A program made the translations under genes and the position numbers. The notes below the pieces were generated by a model. It did not search any database. It saw only the letters and a program-made list of their open reading frames with translations, and was not told the origin of the DNA. Source: Bythopirellula goksoeyrii (GTDB lineage Bacteria > Planctomycetota > Planctomycetia > Pirellulales > Lacipirellulaceae). Taken from it: DNA of 64,000 nt. The stretch lies in contig NZ_CP042913.1 in the NCBI RefSeq assembly GCF_008065115.1, positions 9,211 through 73,210 of the forward strand, in the 5' to 3' direction. Numbering within the stretch: position 1 is the first letter of the stretch; the number at the start of each line of letters is the position of its first letter. Shown here one piece after another: positions 16,375 through 24,982 of the stretch.

Positions 16375-16923
16375 ATGCTGAAGTGCCAAAAGTGCGATCG
16401 ACAAGCTACGTTTCACATAACCGACCTGATTGATGGTAAGCCAAAAGAACTCCATCTGTGTGAAGATTGCGCGCAGAATTTCTTGACTCCTAGCGAAGAA
16501 GATACATCGGATGTCATGCCGGCGATGGCAGGCCTATTGGCCCAGCATCTTGCCGTTGGGGAAACTGCCGATCAATTGGCGCGCCTCGACCAGATGCGTT
16601 GCCCAGTTTGTTCGATCACTTTTCTCGAGTTCCGTAAGCAGGGGAGGCTCGGCTGTCCCCATGATTATGAATTCTTCGCTGATGAACTTGAGCCTCTTTT
16701 GATGAACATCCATGATCAAACTCATCACATTGGGAAGGTTCCCAAGAGATGCCCTAAGGGAGCGGACCAACAAACCCAGCTCATTCGATTACGGCGCGAA
16801 ATGAAAGAGGCGATTTCTTCCGAAAACTATGAGAGGGCGTCCCAAATTAGAGACGAAATTCGGGCCATCGAAACTCAAGCACAATCCCCTGAAAACGGTG
16901 GAGAAAAGGAAGAGTCAGACTAA
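16375..16923 (+). CDS. mcsA: McsA-like zinc-finger/UVR-motif activator of arginine kinase
   Basis: 182 residues. In Firmicutes McsA binds zinc and activates the protein-arginine kinase McsB. N-terminal CxxC pairs are at C4/C7 and C29/C32, a second cluster at C76/C79 with C94 (GCPHDYEFF), and a C-terminal UVR helix pair LRREMKEAISSENYERA at about 138-155. The next gene is the kinase mcsB, 149 bases on in the same direction, which supports the assignment over a generic UvrB/UvrC-motif protein. CtsR and ClpC, the usual partners in Bacillus, are not in the window. Confidence 0.9.
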   Translation: MLKCQKCDRQATFHITDLIDGKPKELHLCEDCAQNFLTPSEEDTSDVMPAMAGLLAQHLAVGETADQLARLDQMRCPVCSITFLEFRKQGRLGCPHDYEFFADELEPLLMNIHDQTHHIGKVPKRCPKGADQQTQLIRLRREMKEAISSENYERASQIRDEIRAIETQAQSPENGGEKEESD

Positions 16924-17072: not shown

Positions 17073-18161
17073 ATGGAATTGAACGAACTGACCAATGCGA
17101 GCGGCGAATGGCTACGTGGGGCTGGCCCAGAGTCGGATATTGTTATCAGCAGTCGTATTCGGTTAGCCCGCAATCTAGCAGACTTTCCCTTTCTCTCTCG
17201 GGCTACAGAGGCTGATCGAGCTGCTATCGAACAGATTTTGCAAGATACGATTTCCAAATTAATCGAGGAGAAGAAACTCGATCCGAACACGTTGTACATC
17301 AAGGTCGGTGACATAGACCAACTTGATCGAATGTTTCTCGTAGAAAGACAGCTTATTAGCCGAGAGCTGGCAGATGCGACTGGGGCTCGTTCCGTAGTGA
17401 TCGATCCCCAGGAAAGATACAGCGTCATGATCAACGAAGAGGATCATGTCCGCCTGCAAGTCATGCAGAGCGGATTGAACCTTCAGGCTGCCTGGGAACA
17501 GGTCAATCGTTTGGACGACTTAATCGAAGAGCATGTAGTCTATGCCTTCAGTGACAGGCTGGGGTACCTCACGGCTTGCCCCACCAATGTTGGTACAGGA
17601 ATCCGCGTGAGCGTCATGCTCCACCTACCTGCCTTGGTGATTACCAGACAGATCGAAAAAGTATTCAAGAGTTTACAAAAGATCAGCCTGGCGGTGCGGG
17701 GACTCTATGGAGAAGGCTCCCAAGCGATGGGCGACTTCTATCAAATCAGCAATCAAATCACCTTGGGACTGACCGAAGAGGAATTGATCGCCAAAGTTGC
17801 CGATATTGTGCCTGTCCTCATCGATTACGAACGTCAGGCTCGTGACTTTTTGATCCGGGAGAGCCACGAAACCCTCCACGATCGCGTGAGTCGGGCGTTT
17901 GGCATTCTGCGCACTGCCCAGACAATTAGCTCAGAGGAAACCATGCACTTGCTTTCGAGTGTGCGGATGGGCCTGAACCTGGGACTTATCAGTGATTTGC
18001 AGATTCCTACTATCAACAAACTGTTTGTACATACCCAACCTGCTCATTTACAGAAACTCGCGGGCAACGATCTCGATTCAGCTGCTCGCAATATCGAACG
18101 GGCTACTTATTTGCGCCGCCACCTCGATGGGAATAAGCCTAACGGTCCGACCCAGAACTAG
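17073..18161 (+). CDS. mcsB: Protein arginine kinase McsB
   Basis: ATP:guanido phosphotransferase family, 362 residues. It phosphorylates arginine side chains of proteins and in Bacillus marks them for ClpCP. Catalytic-domain landmarks are ISSRIRLARNLADFPF at 26-40 and the active-site loop ACPTNVGTGIRVSVMLHLP with C169. The length and the lack of an N-terminal guanidino-specificity domain separate it from metazoan arginine or creatine kinases. It lies behind mcsA, forming the usual activator-kinase pair. Confidence 0.93.
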   Translation: MELNELTNASGEWLRGAGPESDIVISSRIRLARNLADFPFLSRATEADRAAIEQILQDTISKLIEEKKLDPNTLYIKVGDIDQLDRMFLVERQLISRELADATGARSVVIDPQERYSVMINEEDHVRLQVMQSGLNLQAAWEQVNRLDDLIEEHVVYAFSDRLGYLTACPTNVGTGIRVSVMLHLPALVITRQIEKVFKSLQKISLAVRGLYGEGSQAMGDFYQISNQITLGLTEEELIAKVADIVPVLIDYERQARDFLIRESHETLHDRVSRAFGILRTAQTISSEETMHLLSSVRMGLNLGLISDLQIPTINKLFVHTQPAHLQKLAGNDLDSAARNIERATYLRRHLDGNKPNGPTQN

Positions 18162-19288: not shown

Positions 19289-20743
19289 GTGACTTCCACT
19301 CCAAAAGCGGGAAACGGCGTGAGCGACCATTCTATCATTTCAAATTTCGTTTCAAACAATCGCAAGGCGCTGGCAGTCATAGTCACCGTCCTGGCGATGT
19401 TTGCTCTTGGCATCTCATCCTATCTGACATGGGTTACCTGGAACCAGTCCTCGATTGCTGGCTGTTCGGGCAGTTCCTTGGCAGGCTGTGATGAAGTGCT
19501 TGACAGTGTCTGGTCGAAGTGGCTAGGAATTCCTGTCAGTCTATTTGGCTCACTCGTGTATGCCGGGATTCTGACACTCTGCTGGCCAGGTATCTTGCAT
19601 CCCAGAAGTTGGGCGGCATTGGGTCTCATGGCATTGGCCCTTGTTGCCGCTGGATCTGGTGTCTGGTTCTTTGGAGTACAGTTCCTCCTAATAGGGCACT
19701 ATTGTTTCTATTGTCTCTCCGTGCATATCTGCGGGCTACTGATCTCGATCGTTGCCTATTTCGCTTTGAACGATTCTGCTCCAGTTCAAGACTACGATCA
19801 AATGCGATCCTTGTTGGGTGTCGATTTCGACGCTTCAGAACCAACTGAATCAACAAGACTCACGAACTTTCAACCCTTGATTGCATCTGGAATTGCGGTA
19901 GTAGGTTTGCTTTTCCTCATTGGGGGGCAACTGCTTTTCGCACCGTCTACTATGAAATTCGTCGCCAACGTAGACAATGCGAAACTTGTTGATGCACAAC
20001 AGAAAGATGACATAGAAGAAGCAGAGGACACGCCGGAGTTCACTGTCGAATTGGACTCCGATAGTGAAACTCCCGAAGCCAAATCTCCTGCTCCCACGAC
20101 CGACGAAACTAGATCGACGTCTCCCGGTAGGTCCAAGCCGCGTTATCTCACTTTGCAATCGTTGGGAAAACGCGTGGAAGTCACCAATGAGCCGACGCTG
20201 GGCGATCCGCACGCAGAGCAGGTTTTGGTCGAACTGCTTGACTACACCTGCCCTCATTGCCGAAAGATGCATCCTTATATTCACCAAGCTGCCGAGCGCT
20301 ATGGAGAGGATATCTGCTTCGCGATCTATCATGTCCCTTTGAGTCGCCACTGCAATCCTCATGTAAAGATGGATCAGAGCTTACATCGCACGGCGTGCGA
20401 CTACGCGAAACTGGCCATCAGTGTCTGGAAGCTGAATCCGGCAAAGTTCGCTGAGTTTCACAACTACTTAATGGAAGGCGAAAAAGCACCTGCCGTCTAC
20501 AAGGCACGCAATAAGGCGATGGAACTTGTGGGAAACGAGATACTACTCGACAAATCACTCGAGATTGATGCCAATCGCCGGGTCAAGCAGCATGTCGATG
20601 AAATGAAGAAACTCGAAACCGGCTTGCCGGTTCTTGTTTCAGAGAAGGGGGTTATTAAAGGTGTCCCCAACGATGAAACTAAATGGTTCGGGTTCTTCGA
20701 GAATACCTTGGGCCTTGAGCCCCAAACTGCTGAAGTTGAATGA
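19289..20743 (+). CDS. VKOR-DsbA-like fusion, disulfide-forming membrane protein
   Basis: 484 residues. The N-terminal vitamin K epoxide reductase domain (about 25-165) has four to five membrane helices, loop cysteines C59 and C67 and the redox centre CFYC at 139-142. A further membrane helix at about 195-215 and an acidic low-complexity linker (about 235-285) lead to a periplasmic thioredoxin-fold domain with LLDYTCPHCRKMHP, CPHC at 321-324. Such fusions couple DsbA-like oxidation of exported proteins to quinone reduction. Starts with GTG at 19289, AAGGA upstream. Given the many exported proteins in the window it probably serves their folding. Confidence 0.92.
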   Translation: MTSTPKAGNGVSDHSIISNFVSNNRKALAVIVTVLAMFALGISSYLTWVTWNQSSIAGCSGSSLAGCDEVLDSVWSKWLGIPVSLFGSLVYAGILTLCWPGILHPRSWAALGLMALALVAAGSGVWFFGVQFLLIGHYCFYCLSVHICGLLISIVAYFALNDSAPVQDYDQMRSLLGVDFDASEPTESTRLTNFQPLIASGIAVVGLLFLIGGQLLFAPSTMKFVANVDNAKLVDAQQKDDIEEAEDTPEFTVELDSDSETPEAKSPAPTTDETRSTSPGRSKPRYLTLQSLGKRVEVTNEPTLGDPHAEQVLVELLDYTCPHCRKMHPYIHQAAERYGEDICFAIYHVPLSRHCNPHVKMDQSLHRTACDYAKLAISVWKLNPAKFAEFHNYLMEGEKAPAVYKARNKAMELVGNEILLDKSLEIDANRRVKQHVDEMKKLETGLPVLVSEKGVIKGVPNDETKWFGFFENTLGLEPQTAEVE

Positions 20744-20850
20744 CCGGCATTTTCGGGTTTTTTCCATTTTCTACGAACCTTGGTAGGGTCGCGCGACTCT
20801 CTGGAATTAGTTGCTAAGCAAAAATACTGGCCTCTGACAATTGATATTGC

Positions 20851-20877
20851 TTGACGGGCCGGTTTCGTGATTATAAT
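20851..20877 (+). promoter_or_regulatory. Strong promoter of a small transcription unit
   Basis: TTGACG at 20851-20856 and a perfect TATAAT at 20872-20877, spacer 15 bases (16 if the -35 is taken one base earlier). The predicted start is near 20884. It is among the best promoter matches in the window and serves no long gene. Confidence 0.65.
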
Positions 20878-20883
20878 GCAACT

Positions 20884-21166
20884 ATGGGTCGTGCGACCGC
20901 AGCACGACGGGCCCTAACTGGCCGCCGAGTGTCCTCTGGCAGGGCGCTTAGCCGCCGCAAACTTGTGAGAAAGGAGGTGGTTCTTTGAACGATTATCATA
21001 TAAGCCAGTGGGGTGGTGCAAACCGTTGACCGCCGGCGGGTTGTCTAACGGAGGCAGCCACCACCTGCTTGTGAGTGCCCGCCTTGCTCACTTCCGAGCT
21101 AAGGCCTGTTCTCTAAGCAAAAACTATGAACCCGGTCACCCGAGTGGTGGCCGGGTTTCTTTTTTG
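20884..21166 (+). ncRNA. Candidate structured RNA or leader with tiny ORFs, about 280 nt
   Basis: The unit lies between a strong promoter and an intrinsic terminator and holds no long frame. It begins with a hairpin GTCGTGC..GCACGAC. An ATG at 20884, at the predicted start of transcription, opens a basic 34-codon frame to 20988. Inside it AGAAAGGAGGTG (20968-20979) matches the 16S 3' end over twelve bases, and five bases later a TTG opens a 14-codon frame (20985-21029, MNDYHISQWGGANR) overlapping the first stop. Behind it GGTGGTGCAAACC and GCAGCCACCACC could pair. I considered SRP RNA, tmRNA, 6S and RNase P and saw none of their signatures. It may be a regulatory RNA or a small-peptide mRNA. 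Confidence 0.55.
21130..21166 (+). terminator. Intrinsic terminator of the small transcription unit
   Basis: Stem AACCCGG..CACC with TGGTGG..CCGGGTT around a CGAG loop, followed by TTTCTTTTTT. A textbook rho-independent terminator. Confidence 0.85.
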
Positions 21167-22045: not shown

Positions 22046-24982
22046 ATGAATCACCACCACTCGTACGTCGCCATTGGGATCCTCATCTGTTCGCTCTTCA
22101 CTTTTAGTGTCGCTCTGGCTCGAGGCCAGTCGGCCTACTTCTCGCTGGAGGGCGACATCAATGTGCCGCTTGACGAGTACGATGCGTTGTTCGATCTGAC
22201 GCGCACTGTCGGCAGCGGCGAGGACCTGCGGTTCCGCGCTTATACGCAGGTGGGCGGAGTGAACAGCGCGGGTGATGTGATCCCCAGTTCGGGCTTCGAC
22301 GCGCAACTATCTTTGTTCGATAGTGCCAACGCGCTCCGCGGACAGGATCGTACGTCTGCTGGTCCAGACGCACTGCTGTCTTGGCCAGGCATCACGGTCG
22401 TCGGGACCCCACTGAACCCCAACCCGCTCCCGGCGGACAATTACCGTCTGAACCTTCTTGCCGGCCCATCCGGACCACCGGTGGGCCCGTTTGCGGTGGA
22501 TCTGATCGGCCCGGCGGACGCGATTGTTTTCACAGGCGGCACGCCTATCAATAACGCAACGCTTACTTCGCTGAAATTCGGCAGCACGGGAGGCGGAACG
22601 GCGACTTACCGGCTCGCGGCAGACGCGAACAACACGGGTACCCTCGAATCACAAGCCGGTGGAGTGATCGAGGGGAACGGCGCCAACGGGTTGGGATTCA
22701 GTACTGGAGCCCAAGGGCGTAAAATCACTTCATCTAGTGAACTCCTGTCAAGTGTTGGTTCTCTTTGGAATCTGAGAGGCGGCACGGGAGGGCAATTTGC
22801 TGCTGGTGGAAGGGGTGGGGCAATCGTCGTGGAGGGTGGGATTGCCGTACTCGGGGGGGATGGGGACCTGCGAGGTGGAACACAAGGTCCCGGATCTTCT
22901 TCCTCGGCAGGAGGAGTGGGGGGGTCGATCAGTCTATCAAACAGCGACGTTACGATCTCGGGCGCATTTGACCTCAGTGGGAGCCGTTTCAGTGCGGGAG
23001 GATCCGTTTCGGTCGCCACCGGCACGGCCGTTTTGTCGGGCGACTTTGTTCAGGTCGGTGGTGTCGGAACCCAGCAAAGAGAGGCCGGCGTGGGCGGATC
23101 GCTGACGGTCTCTGGTGGAACCGTCGATCTGTCCGGCACCTTCGACTTGACGGGTGGCCGGGGTGGGAATGCCGGAGCTACCGGAGGGGATGCGGCCCAG
23201 GGGGGAAATGTCTCTATCTCTGGAGGGCTCGCCACCCTTACCGGGTCCGTCACTCTCGATGGGGGTGTGGGTGGCAATGCGAACACTACCGGAGGCGATG
23301 GCGGGCGAGGCGGAACCGTGTCGGTCTCTGCCGGTGAGTTCCTATTGCATGGAGGAAACATCTCCCTGGCTGGTGGTGTTGGCGGCAGCGCAATTTTCCC
23401 CGGCACTACCGGCGCCAACGGCAGCGTCAATGTCACCGGCGGCACGTTCTCGCTAAATAGTGGGGAGATCCTGGGTCGAACCGGAGCTGCCTCGGCCGAT
23501 CCACTCACGCTTAGCAACGCCTCGCTGAATGTTTCGGATACGGGCTTAGTCCAGGTCCTGAATGACGTGACGATGAGCAACGGCGCAGCGCTCAACGTGA
23601 CAGCGGGCGGTCTCGTCGACGCTACGCCGGCACAGGCTGCGGCCGGCGTGGCCGGGACCAGCGGCAAAACGCTGAAATCTAACGGCCAGATCACCAACAC
23701 CGACGGTTCGATCCGCTACGACGGCGGCGACGGCGGACTCATCCCCCCCGGCCTTTTCAACTCCGGTGGGATTGGCGGCGACGGCGGGATGCTCACTGCG
23801 ACCGGCGGCGGCATCACACTCGGCGGGATCGGCTCGATGAGCTTCGACGGCGGTGACGGCGGCGGCCTGGGCGCCTGCTGCGACAACTACGGCGGCACCG
23901 GCGGCGCAGGCGGCACCCTCAACCTCAGCAGTACCACCGTGATCCTTGACGCTCAGAGCAGCCTAAAGGCCAATGGCGGCGACGGCGGCGGCGGTGACAC
24001 ATTCGGCGACGGCATCGGCGGCTTGGGTGGCACGATCCAGCTCAACAGCGGGTCGATCACCCAGAACGGCTCGTCCGTGGTGCTGCTCAATGGCGGCAAC
24101 GCCGGCCTGGGCTCCGGCTCACCCGGCAACGTCGGCGGCGATGGCGGCACGTTGAATGTGCTTGGCGGCAGCTACACAATTACCGATAGCGCCACGCTCG
24201 ACCTGCGGGGCGGGCTGGGTACCGGCGGCAACGCCGATGGCGCTCACGGCCTGATCGACGTCACGAGTGGGACGTTCGCCATGAACGGCGGTGACGTTTT
24301 TGCCGGCACGATCCAGCACCCCGGCACGGGCAATTTTGATTTCAATGGTGGCACACTCACTGCGGAGACGTTCAATGGCGTACTTGTTCAGGATGGTGGC
24401 ACGCTCTTGATCGGTGGCTCGCCAGGAACAATGACCGTCTCGCAGGACTACATGATCAACGCCGGTTCCGTGGAGATCGAACTCTTTGCCGGTGGAGTTA
24501 CACCCACGGCGGGGGTCGACTTCGATCAACTCACGGCCGACACCGCCACGCTGGGCGGTAGTTTGGAACTTGTGATCGATAGTGGCTACTCGCCAAGTCT
24601 CGGGCACATGTTTCCCATTCTCACCACGACCGGTGGAGTGACGGGTACCTTTGCCAATGTCAATGGCGCTTATTTGGGCGCCGGACTCGGATTCGACGTG
24701 CAGTACAACGCTAACGATGTGACGCTTGAAGTCATCAACGTTCTCCTTGGCGACTTCGACGTCGACGGCGATGTCGATGGTCGTGATTTTCTTGTTTGGC
24801 AGCGTGATCCGAGCATTGGAAACCTCACCGATTGGCAGGCGAACTACGGCATGGTCGCGCCGCTCTCGGCGAATGCAGCTGCGGTGCCGGAACCGAGTGG
24901 GCTCTTGTTGCTTGGGTGGCTCCTGGTGTGTGGCTGGTGGGGAGGGAGGAACGCGCTCTGCTGCGCTCCGCATCGCGGCTAA
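22046..24982 (+). CDS. Glycine-rich exported protein with dockerin-like and PEP-CTERM end
   Basis: 978 residues. A signal peptide (about 1-28, ending ALARGQS) is followed by a long Gly/Ser/Thr-rich body of imperfect repeats such as GGxVxVSGGxxxLxG, the pattern of beta-helical autotransporter-like or adhesin passengers. Near 915-935 is a calcium-binding dockerin-like loop, GDFDVDGDVDGRDFLVWQ, common in planctomycete surface proteins. The C-terminus has VPEPSGLLLLGWLLVCGWW, a PEP-CTERM sorting signal: motif, helix, then basic residue. The protein does not stop soon after the helix: the last ten residues are read from the dispersed CGCGGCTAAC motif, which supplies the TAA. It is probably anchored at or released from the outer surface. 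Substrate unknown. Confidence 0.85.
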   Translation: MNHHHSYVAIGILICSLFTFSVALARGQSAYFSLEGDINVPLDEYDALFDLTRTVGSGEDLRFRAYTQVGGVNSAGDVIPSSGFDAQLSLFDSANALRGQDRTSAGPDALLSWPGITVVGTPLNPNPLPADNYRLNLLAGPSGPPVGPFAVDLIGPADAIVFTGGTPINNATLTSLKFGSTGGGTATYRLAADANNTGTLESQAGGVIEGNGANGLGFSTGAQGRKITSSSELLSSVGSLWNLRGGTGGQFAAGGRGGAIVVEGGIAVLGGDGDLRGGTQGPGSSSSAGGVGGSISLSNSDVTISGAFDLSGSRFSAGGSVSVATGTAVLSGDFVQVGGVGTQQREAGVGGSLTVSGGTVDLSGTFDLTGGRGGNAGATGGDAAQGGNVSISGGLATLTGSVTLDGGVGGNANTTGGDGGRGGTVSVSAGEFLLHGGNISLAGGVGGSAIFPGTTGANGSVNVTGGTFSLNSGEILGRTGAASADPLTLSNASLNVSDTGLVQVLNDVTMSNGAALNVTAGGLVDATPAQAAAGVAGTSGKTLKSNGQITNTDGSIRYDGGDGGLIPPGLFNSGGIGGDGGMLTATGGGITLGGIGSMSFDGGDGGGLGACCDNYGGTGGAGGTLNLSSTTVILDAQSSLKANGGDGGGGDTFGDGIGGLGGTIQLNSGSITQNGSSVVLLNGGNAGLGSGSPGNVGGDGGTLNVLGGSYTITDSATLDLRGGLGTGGNADGAHGLIDVTSGTFAMNGGDVFAGTIQHPGTGNFDFNGGTLTAETFNGVLVQDGGTLLIGGSPGTMTVSQDYMINAGSVEIELFAGGVTPTAGVDFDQLTADTATLGGSLELVIDSGYSPSLGHMFPILTTTGGVTGTFANVNGAYLGAGLGFDVQYNANDVTLEVINVLLGDFDVDGDVDGRDFLVWQRDPSIGNLTDWQANYGMVAPLSANAAAVPEPSGLLLLGWLLVCGWWGGRNALCCAPHRG

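Follow-up and report, generated by a model that had tools for sequence, protein, structure and literature searches.

A candidate translation-gated RNA with a conserved mini-ORF built into its fold in Planctomycetota

Introduction

What is the product of a transcription unit of about 280 nucleotides: a peptide, an RNA, or an RNA that has to be translated in order to work? The unit considered here lies in Bythopirellula goksoeyrii, between the end of a VKOR-thioredoxin gene (20743) and the start of a long open reading frame (ORF; 22046). The stretch of DNA analysed (the window, 64 kb) covers positions 9211-73210 of the single-contig genome (6.47 Mb), and positions below are those of the window. 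An initial annotation had placed two small overlapping frames and a long Shine-Dalgarno (SD) match between a promoter and a terminator, and had offered a ribosome-sensing RNA, an mRNA for two small peptides or a member of an undescribed planctomycete RNA class as explanations. Its interpretation is partly supported by the comparisons reported here. The reading that we favour, with a probability of roughly 0.58, is a free-standing, translation-gated regulatory RNA, usually present in one copy and wide in Planctomycetota.

Results

Distribution in Planctomycetota

When 351 bases were used as a DNA query, 37 of 97 genomes, B. goksoeyrii itself among them, had homologues, a number far above chance. 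Thirty of the loci found were fetched and aligned, those on the reverse strand being turned, and they share the SD sequence, the first hairpin, a CTCTGGCA-like loop, a GCCA...GGTGG stretch and the motif CCGGCGGG. Covariance searches were then read at E up to 0.001, where some of the weakest matches may be chance, on samples of genomes in each of which scoring was limited to the top 7-9 candidates. A model built from 28 of these loci (L015 and L019 of family f1 left out) had matches in 116 of the 396 genomes sampled from the order, and one built from 52 sequences in 271 of 397 from the class and 56 of 392 from the phylum. When members from outside the class were included in the model, 155 of the 392 phylum genomes matched, 36 in the class and 119 outside it. 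The RNAalifold consensus structures of these last two models (R2 and R3) were poor (15 and 3 pairs), and both therefore find the RNA mostly by sequence, with rough E-values. A pattern scan of a collection with one genome per species gave 40 records, of which 39 are labelled with planctomycete taxa, including several Rhodopirellula species, and the fortieth simply as a bacterium.

The loci used in the tests below were the 30 from the DNA search (28 after the cut), 40 chosen from the 116 hits of the order, 20 chosen from the 271 hits of the class, all 20 outside-class hits of the 52-sequence model, 20 chosen from 99 further outside-class hits, and the 40 pattern-scan records, which were handled by script only and not by eye. 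L031-L060, being repeats, were excluded. L091 is from the same order, resembles the outside type and was kept out of the class set of 111 unique members; L130 and L137 were left out of alignment A3.

Among the candidates scored, nearly all genomes had one match and few had two. Two matches were seen in genomes G191, G674, G723, G747, G774, G844 and G953, either as second copies or by chance.

The genes next to the RNA differ among loci and occur on either strand. The closest downstream ORF was on the plus strand in 61 and on the minus strand in 59 of 120 loci, and the commonest shared downstream gene family was found in 15 of 129 loci, none being more frequent. In the window, the next long plus-strand ORF begins 880 nt past the terminator of the RNA. 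A terminator-like site was present in 99 of 105 class members (16 of 105 when shuffled), typically 118 nt past the ORF stop, and in 25 of 38 outside-class loci (7 of 38 when shuffled). With these mixed neighbour strands and this terminator, the RNA gene is free-standing.

Promoter, transcript and terminator

The features of the unit are collected in Table 1. The initial annotation had described a near-consensus promoter, and this held in part. The -10 box TATAAT (20872-20877) is a perfect match; a TTGACG lies only 15 nt upstream of it, and a promoter scan requiring a spacing of 16-18 nt did not report this promoter. By eye, the relatives keep a TTGC-like element in place of TTGACG, which here lies at 20847-20850. 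The best -10 match was 6/6 in 25 of 111 class members compared to 0 of 111 shuffled sequences, and 5/6 in 23 class members compared to 16 shuffled ones (n = 111). The terminator was recovered by the scan at 21128-21158, with a T-run to about 21166. The -10 box and the terminator are both present in those of the 30 aligned loci that are long enough to show them. The predicted 280-nt RNA folds better than shuffled sequences (z = -3.68).

Table 1. Features of the unit, in window coordinates.
Feature	Position	Strand	Basis or remark
Promoter: TTGC element and -10 TATAAT	20847..20877	+	Alignment of 30 loci; -10 match counts
Predicted RNA transcript, ~280 nt	20884..21166	+	Start predicted from the -10 box; 5' hairpin and 3' terminator kept in relatives; fold z
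Hairpin H1, GUCGUGC / GCACGAC	20888..20908	+	Arms by position; loop with ACGC in many relatives
Loop CUGGC, predicted to pair with ORF bases 21004-21008	20936..20940	+	Swap test, f1 alignment
12-nt Shine-Dalgarno AGAAAGGAGGUG	20968..20979	+	Complementary to own 16S 3' end
Conserved mini-ORF, TTG start, 14 codons, TGA stop (LNDYHISQWGGANR)	20985..21029	+	Frame and stop tests
GCCAG inside the ORF, predicted partner of loop 20936-20940	21004..21008	+	Same tests as the loop
GGUGGU (Gly-Gly codons), 5' arm of helix P3	21012..21017	+	Shortly before the stop codon; swap test
CCGGCGGG, widely kept motif after the stop	21033..21040	+	Alignments; CCGACGGG in many outside-class loci
Hairpin H3, GGUUGUC / GGCAGCC	21039..21059	+	Swap test, f1 alignment
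GCCACCACCUGCUU: 3' arm of P3, possible SD partner	21057..21070	+	SD pairing weak in the swap test
3' hairpin GCUUGUGAG / CUCUAAGC, variable insert	21067..21118	+	Alignment, by eye
Intrinsic terminator	21128..21166	+	Scan; relatives compared to shuffles

Two frames had been proposed inside the unit, and they fared differently. The 34-codon frame does open with an ATG at 20884 in this genome, and its stop overlaps the TTG of the second frame here. It is not conserved: among the 30 aligned loci (that of this genome included) its ATG was found in 3, any usual start in 9 and the overlapping stop in 6, and in its region the frame is spread evenly over the three phases. The 34-codon frame was consequently dropped. 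The compact unit itself, with folded RNA, SD, TTG mini-ORF and terminator, is confirmed at the place described and is conserved far beyond this genome.

Shine-Dalgarno site

The twelve-base match to the anti-SD was confirmed. AGAAAGGAGGTG is its sole occurrence in the 64 kb allowing one mismatch (0.30 by chance), and all 12 bases are complementary to the 3' end of the genome's own 16S rRNA, CACCTCCTTTCT. The core GGAGGT is invariant in the 52 rows of alignment A2 and the 30 rows of A3, whose rows had been cut around GGAGGT. In 57 predicted folds (L001 counted twice) the SD was 28% unpaired compared to 35% for the whole RNA, its predicted partners lying mainly downstream. When the 3' part was exchanged between species, pairing with the SD fell little (own 16.56, swapped 15.95, s.d. 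0.17). In 64 of the 105 class members an SD-like GAGGTGG stands shortly 5' of the stop.

Copies of the 16S 3' tail were seen in the 3' hairpin region of some loci (ACCTCCTTTC in L072; GGATCACCTC in L106 and L119). Masking of the SD by such a 3' anti-SD mimic was considered on the basis of several loci inspected by eye, yet it was weak in the swap test and was not retained.

Mini-ORF

The second frame stood up. TTG at 20985 opens 14 codons that end with TGA at 21027-21029, and an ORF at this place is conserved. In a tally that preferred ORFs containing Gly-Gly, the 111 unique class members start with GTG (69), TTG (41) or ATG (1) and stop with TGA (52), TAG (35) or TAA (24); the length is mostly 13 or 14 codons. 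The frame was tested separately, with the start taken from the SD, the frame not chosen and Gly-Gly not preferred, in 108 of the 111 members (L111 and L112 lack the anchor, and L117 lacks GGAGGT). The first stop falls 6-15 nt past the GGTGG-type anchor in the ORF frame in 106 of 108 members, compared to 5 and 4 in the two alternative frames, and the spacing from start to anchor was 24, 27, 30 or 33 in 106 of 108. The distance between the stop and the motif that follows varies through all values from 5 to 10, with single cases of 12 and 14.

All of 110 class members held an ORF of 9-18 codons with the expected spacing, compared to 12.5% of shuffles; outside the class 38 of 40 loci did, compared to 9.4% of shuffles. 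Both outside-class failures were mis-anchored (an earlier GGAGGT was taken in L139, and the anchor of L204 was one base early). Under a looser ORF rule, 39 of the 40 outside-class loci fetched carry the ORF, and L204 shows one too; L122, L124 and L131 pass this looser rule and fail the stricter one used for the class. Judged by these comparisons, start, frame and stop of the mini-ORF are evidently under selection.

Starts other than ATG are the rule in the class (110 of 111). A reading in which ATG is never used was given up for the phylum, since 14 of the 39 outside-class ORFs start with ATG. The near-absence of ATG starts within the class suggests that initiation is meant to be limiting.

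The fold and the part of the ORF in it

The helices were tested by exchanging arms between species and by shuffling, controls that do not remove the relatedness between species. With arms defined by position only, hairpin H1 scored 16.6 with its own arms and 12.2 with swapped arms (s.d. 0.26; 101 of the 111 members); when the arms were chosen per sequence as the best hairpin, a choice that favours the own arms, the values were 18.5 and 12.4. Hairpin H3 gave 16.1 and 13.4 (s.d. 0.23).

Two predicted pairings involve the ORF itself. A 5-base pairing between the upstream loop and the ORF, with G-U allowed, was possible in 84 of 105 class members; when upstream regions were swapped between species the mean was 65.2 and the maximum 74, and shuffled sequences gave 19.8. 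The pairs were mostly GCCAG-CTGGC (40) and GCCAA-TTGGC (26), with ACCAG-CTGGT and GCCGA-TCGGC more rarely (2 each), and 21 of the 105 members have no 5-bp loop partner. In family f1, whose rows were cut around the motif, 28 of 28 loci had the pairing, and its outer pair shows 4 double changes. Taken jointly in f1, the loop-ORF helix and H3 exceeded all 500 shuffles in their share of paired cells and in their covariation score; the double-change pairs and the pair types, two of the five measures, were not above the shuffles. Helix P3, which would join the Gly-Gly codons to the strand downstream of the stop, shows almost no variation in the class and is therefore uninformative there. In 21 loci of the outside type it scored 21.8 with its own arms and 17.5 when swapped (s.d. 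0.71; the highest of 300 swaps was 19.5), with only 5 of the 21 loci beating every swap. Bases of the ORF are thus predicted to pair both with an upstream loop and with a downstream strand, with covariation.

The encoded peptide

Inside the class the consensus peptide is about M-E-Y-x-C-T-S-Q-R-G-G-x-A, with 12-15 aa. Gly-Gly is held by 105 of 111 class ORFs, and of these 105 the Gln is found in 97 and the Arg in 81. Codon changes keep these residues, the Arg being specified by four codons. The residue before Gln varies (Ser 64, Arg 17, Cys 14), while the last two bases of its codon mostly stay GC. The pairing of the RNA can explain both Gln and Gly-Gly, because the Gln codon lies in the stretch that would pair with the loop and Gly-Gly lies in P3. 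The degree to which Gln and Arg are kept leaves room for a role of the peptide within the class.

Outside the class the peptides have other ends (RRWLxx, KGLxx and others). Of the 111 class members, 105 have GGTGG, at a distance of 12 nt (82) or 15 nt (23) from the stop; of the 39 outside-class ORFs, 13 have it, at 14 nt (8), 11 nt (4) or 27 nt (1). Counted from the stop, GGTGG thus falls in a different frame from that of the class in 12 of these 13 loci, provided that it is homologous, for which the model alignment and helix P3 speak. Judged by this difference in frame, the ORF is kept across the phylum and the peptide is not; a reading in which the peptide is conserved holds inside the class only and was dropped after the comparison. 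The case shows that a reading frame can be conserved without its peptide.

Comparison with known RNAs

Rfam 15 gave no match in the window at the gathering threshold. On the RNA itself there were sub-threshold matches only, the best by E-value with 17.2 bits compared to the 49.5 needed, and on 20 related loci nothing except one tRNA. ARAGORN found no tRNA or tmRNA in the window. The housekeeping RNAs were rejected as identities of the locus, as each was found elsewhere in the genome: tmRNA (RF00023) at C1:6098540-6098898, and RNase P RNA (RF00010) and SRP RNA (RF00169) with one match each. 6S RNA (RF00013) had no match in the genome, with a model that detects it in only 5 of 14 control genomes, so a divergent 6S RNA is possible. 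No description or name of this RNA was found in a search of open PubMed Central papers. The suggestion of an undescribed planctomycete RNA class gains from these results and from the range in order, class and phylum; neither a lack of homologues nor a known Rfam family speaks against it.

tmRNA is widespread and structured, measures about 300-400 nt and contains a short reading frame of its own. The present RNA is likewise widespread and structured and has such a frame; it differs in having its own SD and start codon and in a peptide that is not conserved across classes. SgrS and RNAIII are free-standing RNAs that fold and encode a small peptide, and in dual-function RNAs of this type the peptide acts and is conserved. 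The present RNA is also free-standing and folded, with a small ORF that is predicted to be translated, but its ORF overlaps with its fold, and its peptide differs from class to class, a conserved one being found only in part and inside the class. In leader-peptide attenuators, which helices form depends on the translation of a short ORF. A short ORF with its SD and codons in predicted helices is found here too, without a conserved co-directional gene behind the terminator.

The nearest case that we saw described is the Downstream-peptide/yfr6 RNA of cyanobacteria (RF01704), a conserved RNA of about 250 nt linked with a short ORF whose indels come in multiples of three; as given there, it is a 5' UTR before the ORF and a riboswitch candidate (PMC2864571), whereas here the ORF itself belongs to the predicted fold. 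The same paper (Weinberg et al. 2010) has a Rhodopirellula-1 motif, a candidate RNA of Proteobacteria and Planctomycetes that has no Rfam number and, as its table row reads, a 'y' in the column for cis-regulation (PMC2864571); it was compared with the present RNA by this table description.

Discussion

The comparisons establish, at the level of sequence, a putative RNA family with a wide range, covarying helices and an ORF whose start, frame and stop are selected. A frame that is kept while its peptide is not suggests that the RNA probably works by being translated. As a mechanism, the ribosome-sensing RNA of the initial annotation is the best that we infer. A 30S subunit would compete for the SD, and a ribosome crossing the approximately 13 codons would open the loop-ORF pairing and P3 and may pause at a stop codon that is set in the fold. 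The RNA would thus have a translated and an untranslated form, and could report how readily ribosomes initiate or terminate. It might then act in trans through pairing with targets, protein binding or processing. The SD may in addition pair with the 3' part; this masking step is weak, because the swap result lies near its controls and the SD is little less unpaired than the RNA as a whole.

The likeliest rival is a micropeptide gene, in which the RNA serves chiefly as an mRNA and the product is the peptide of 12-15 aa. Start, frame and stop would be kept for this reason, and so would Gly-Gly, Gln and Arg in the class, where codon changes preserve the residue. We consider it unlikely: RNA pairing can account for Gln and Gly-Gly, the residue before Gln changes while the end of its codon stays, and outside the class the peptide ends are different, with the motif in another frame. 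The proposal of an mRNA for two small peptides finds no support, as the 34-codon frame is not conserved, and the 14-codon peptide changes between classes. Somewhat less probable again is a decoy or parking RNA, which would detain 30S subunits or terminating ribosomes by its long SD and tiny ORF and have no output besides. The 12-nt complementarity to the genome's own 16S end, the non-ATG starts of the class and the GAGGTGG shortly before the stop agree with it, as does the place of Planctomycetes, represented by one species in the table of a comparative study, among those phyla in which a small share of genes carries an SD (PMC5397173). However, H1, the loop-ORF pairing and H3 would be superfluous in a decoy, and its SD should be exposed, which the predicted folds do not show.

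The two other alternatives are far less probable. A leader-peptide attenuator controlling a downstream gene would use just such parts (SD, short ORF, helices and terminator), and one downstream gene is common to 15 of 129 loci. It was rejected on the neighbours: the closest downstream ORF is on the opposite strand in about half of the loci (59 of 120), no downstream gene family is more frequent than that one, and the next long ORF on the strand is distant here. Least probable, by a little, is a purely structural non-coding RNA in which SD and ORF are incidental. Pairing does constrain much of the ORF sequence, but such an RNA is contradicted by the frame test, in which stops are specific to one frame, by the low values of the shuffled controls and by the use of all three stop codons.

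If the translation-gated RNA that we favour is correct, it might be, besides tmRNA, a second broadly conserved bacterial RNA whose built-in frame is a working part and not a message, switched by the passage of one ribosome and reporting the capacity for initiation or termination. We put this forward tentatively, at somewhat less than even odds. The presence of the RNA in 271 of 397 class genomes, together with families across the phylum, makes it likely that it serves something basic. It has no Rfam entry despite this breadth, and it carries a long SD in a phylum reported, from the one species tabulated, with few SD genes (PMC5397173). If translation gates the fold, the state of the RNA would mirror the supply of ribosomes, and cultivated Planctomycetota, among them Rhodopirellula, in which the RNA occurs, would allow a direct test.

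Genes around the locus

Directly upstream of the RNA in B. goksoeyrii, 19289-20743 encodes a VKOR domain fused to a thioredoxin/DsbA-like domain; this family is upstream of the RNA in 6 of 129 loci. Downstream, 22046-24982 is a glycine-rich ORF of 978 aa that had no Pfam match at E 0.001 and has, by eye, a PEP-like C-terminal end. In family f1 (L004, L008, L011, L017 and others) a conserved short protein of unknown function is encoded downstream (15 of 129 loci), and a gene resembling isocitrate/isopropylmalate dehydrogenase, named by eye, is downstream in 9 of 129 loci. Further upstream in the window, a UVR-motif protein (16375-16923) is followed by an ATP:guanido phosphotransferase (17073-18161), and the two resemble an McsA-McsB pair.
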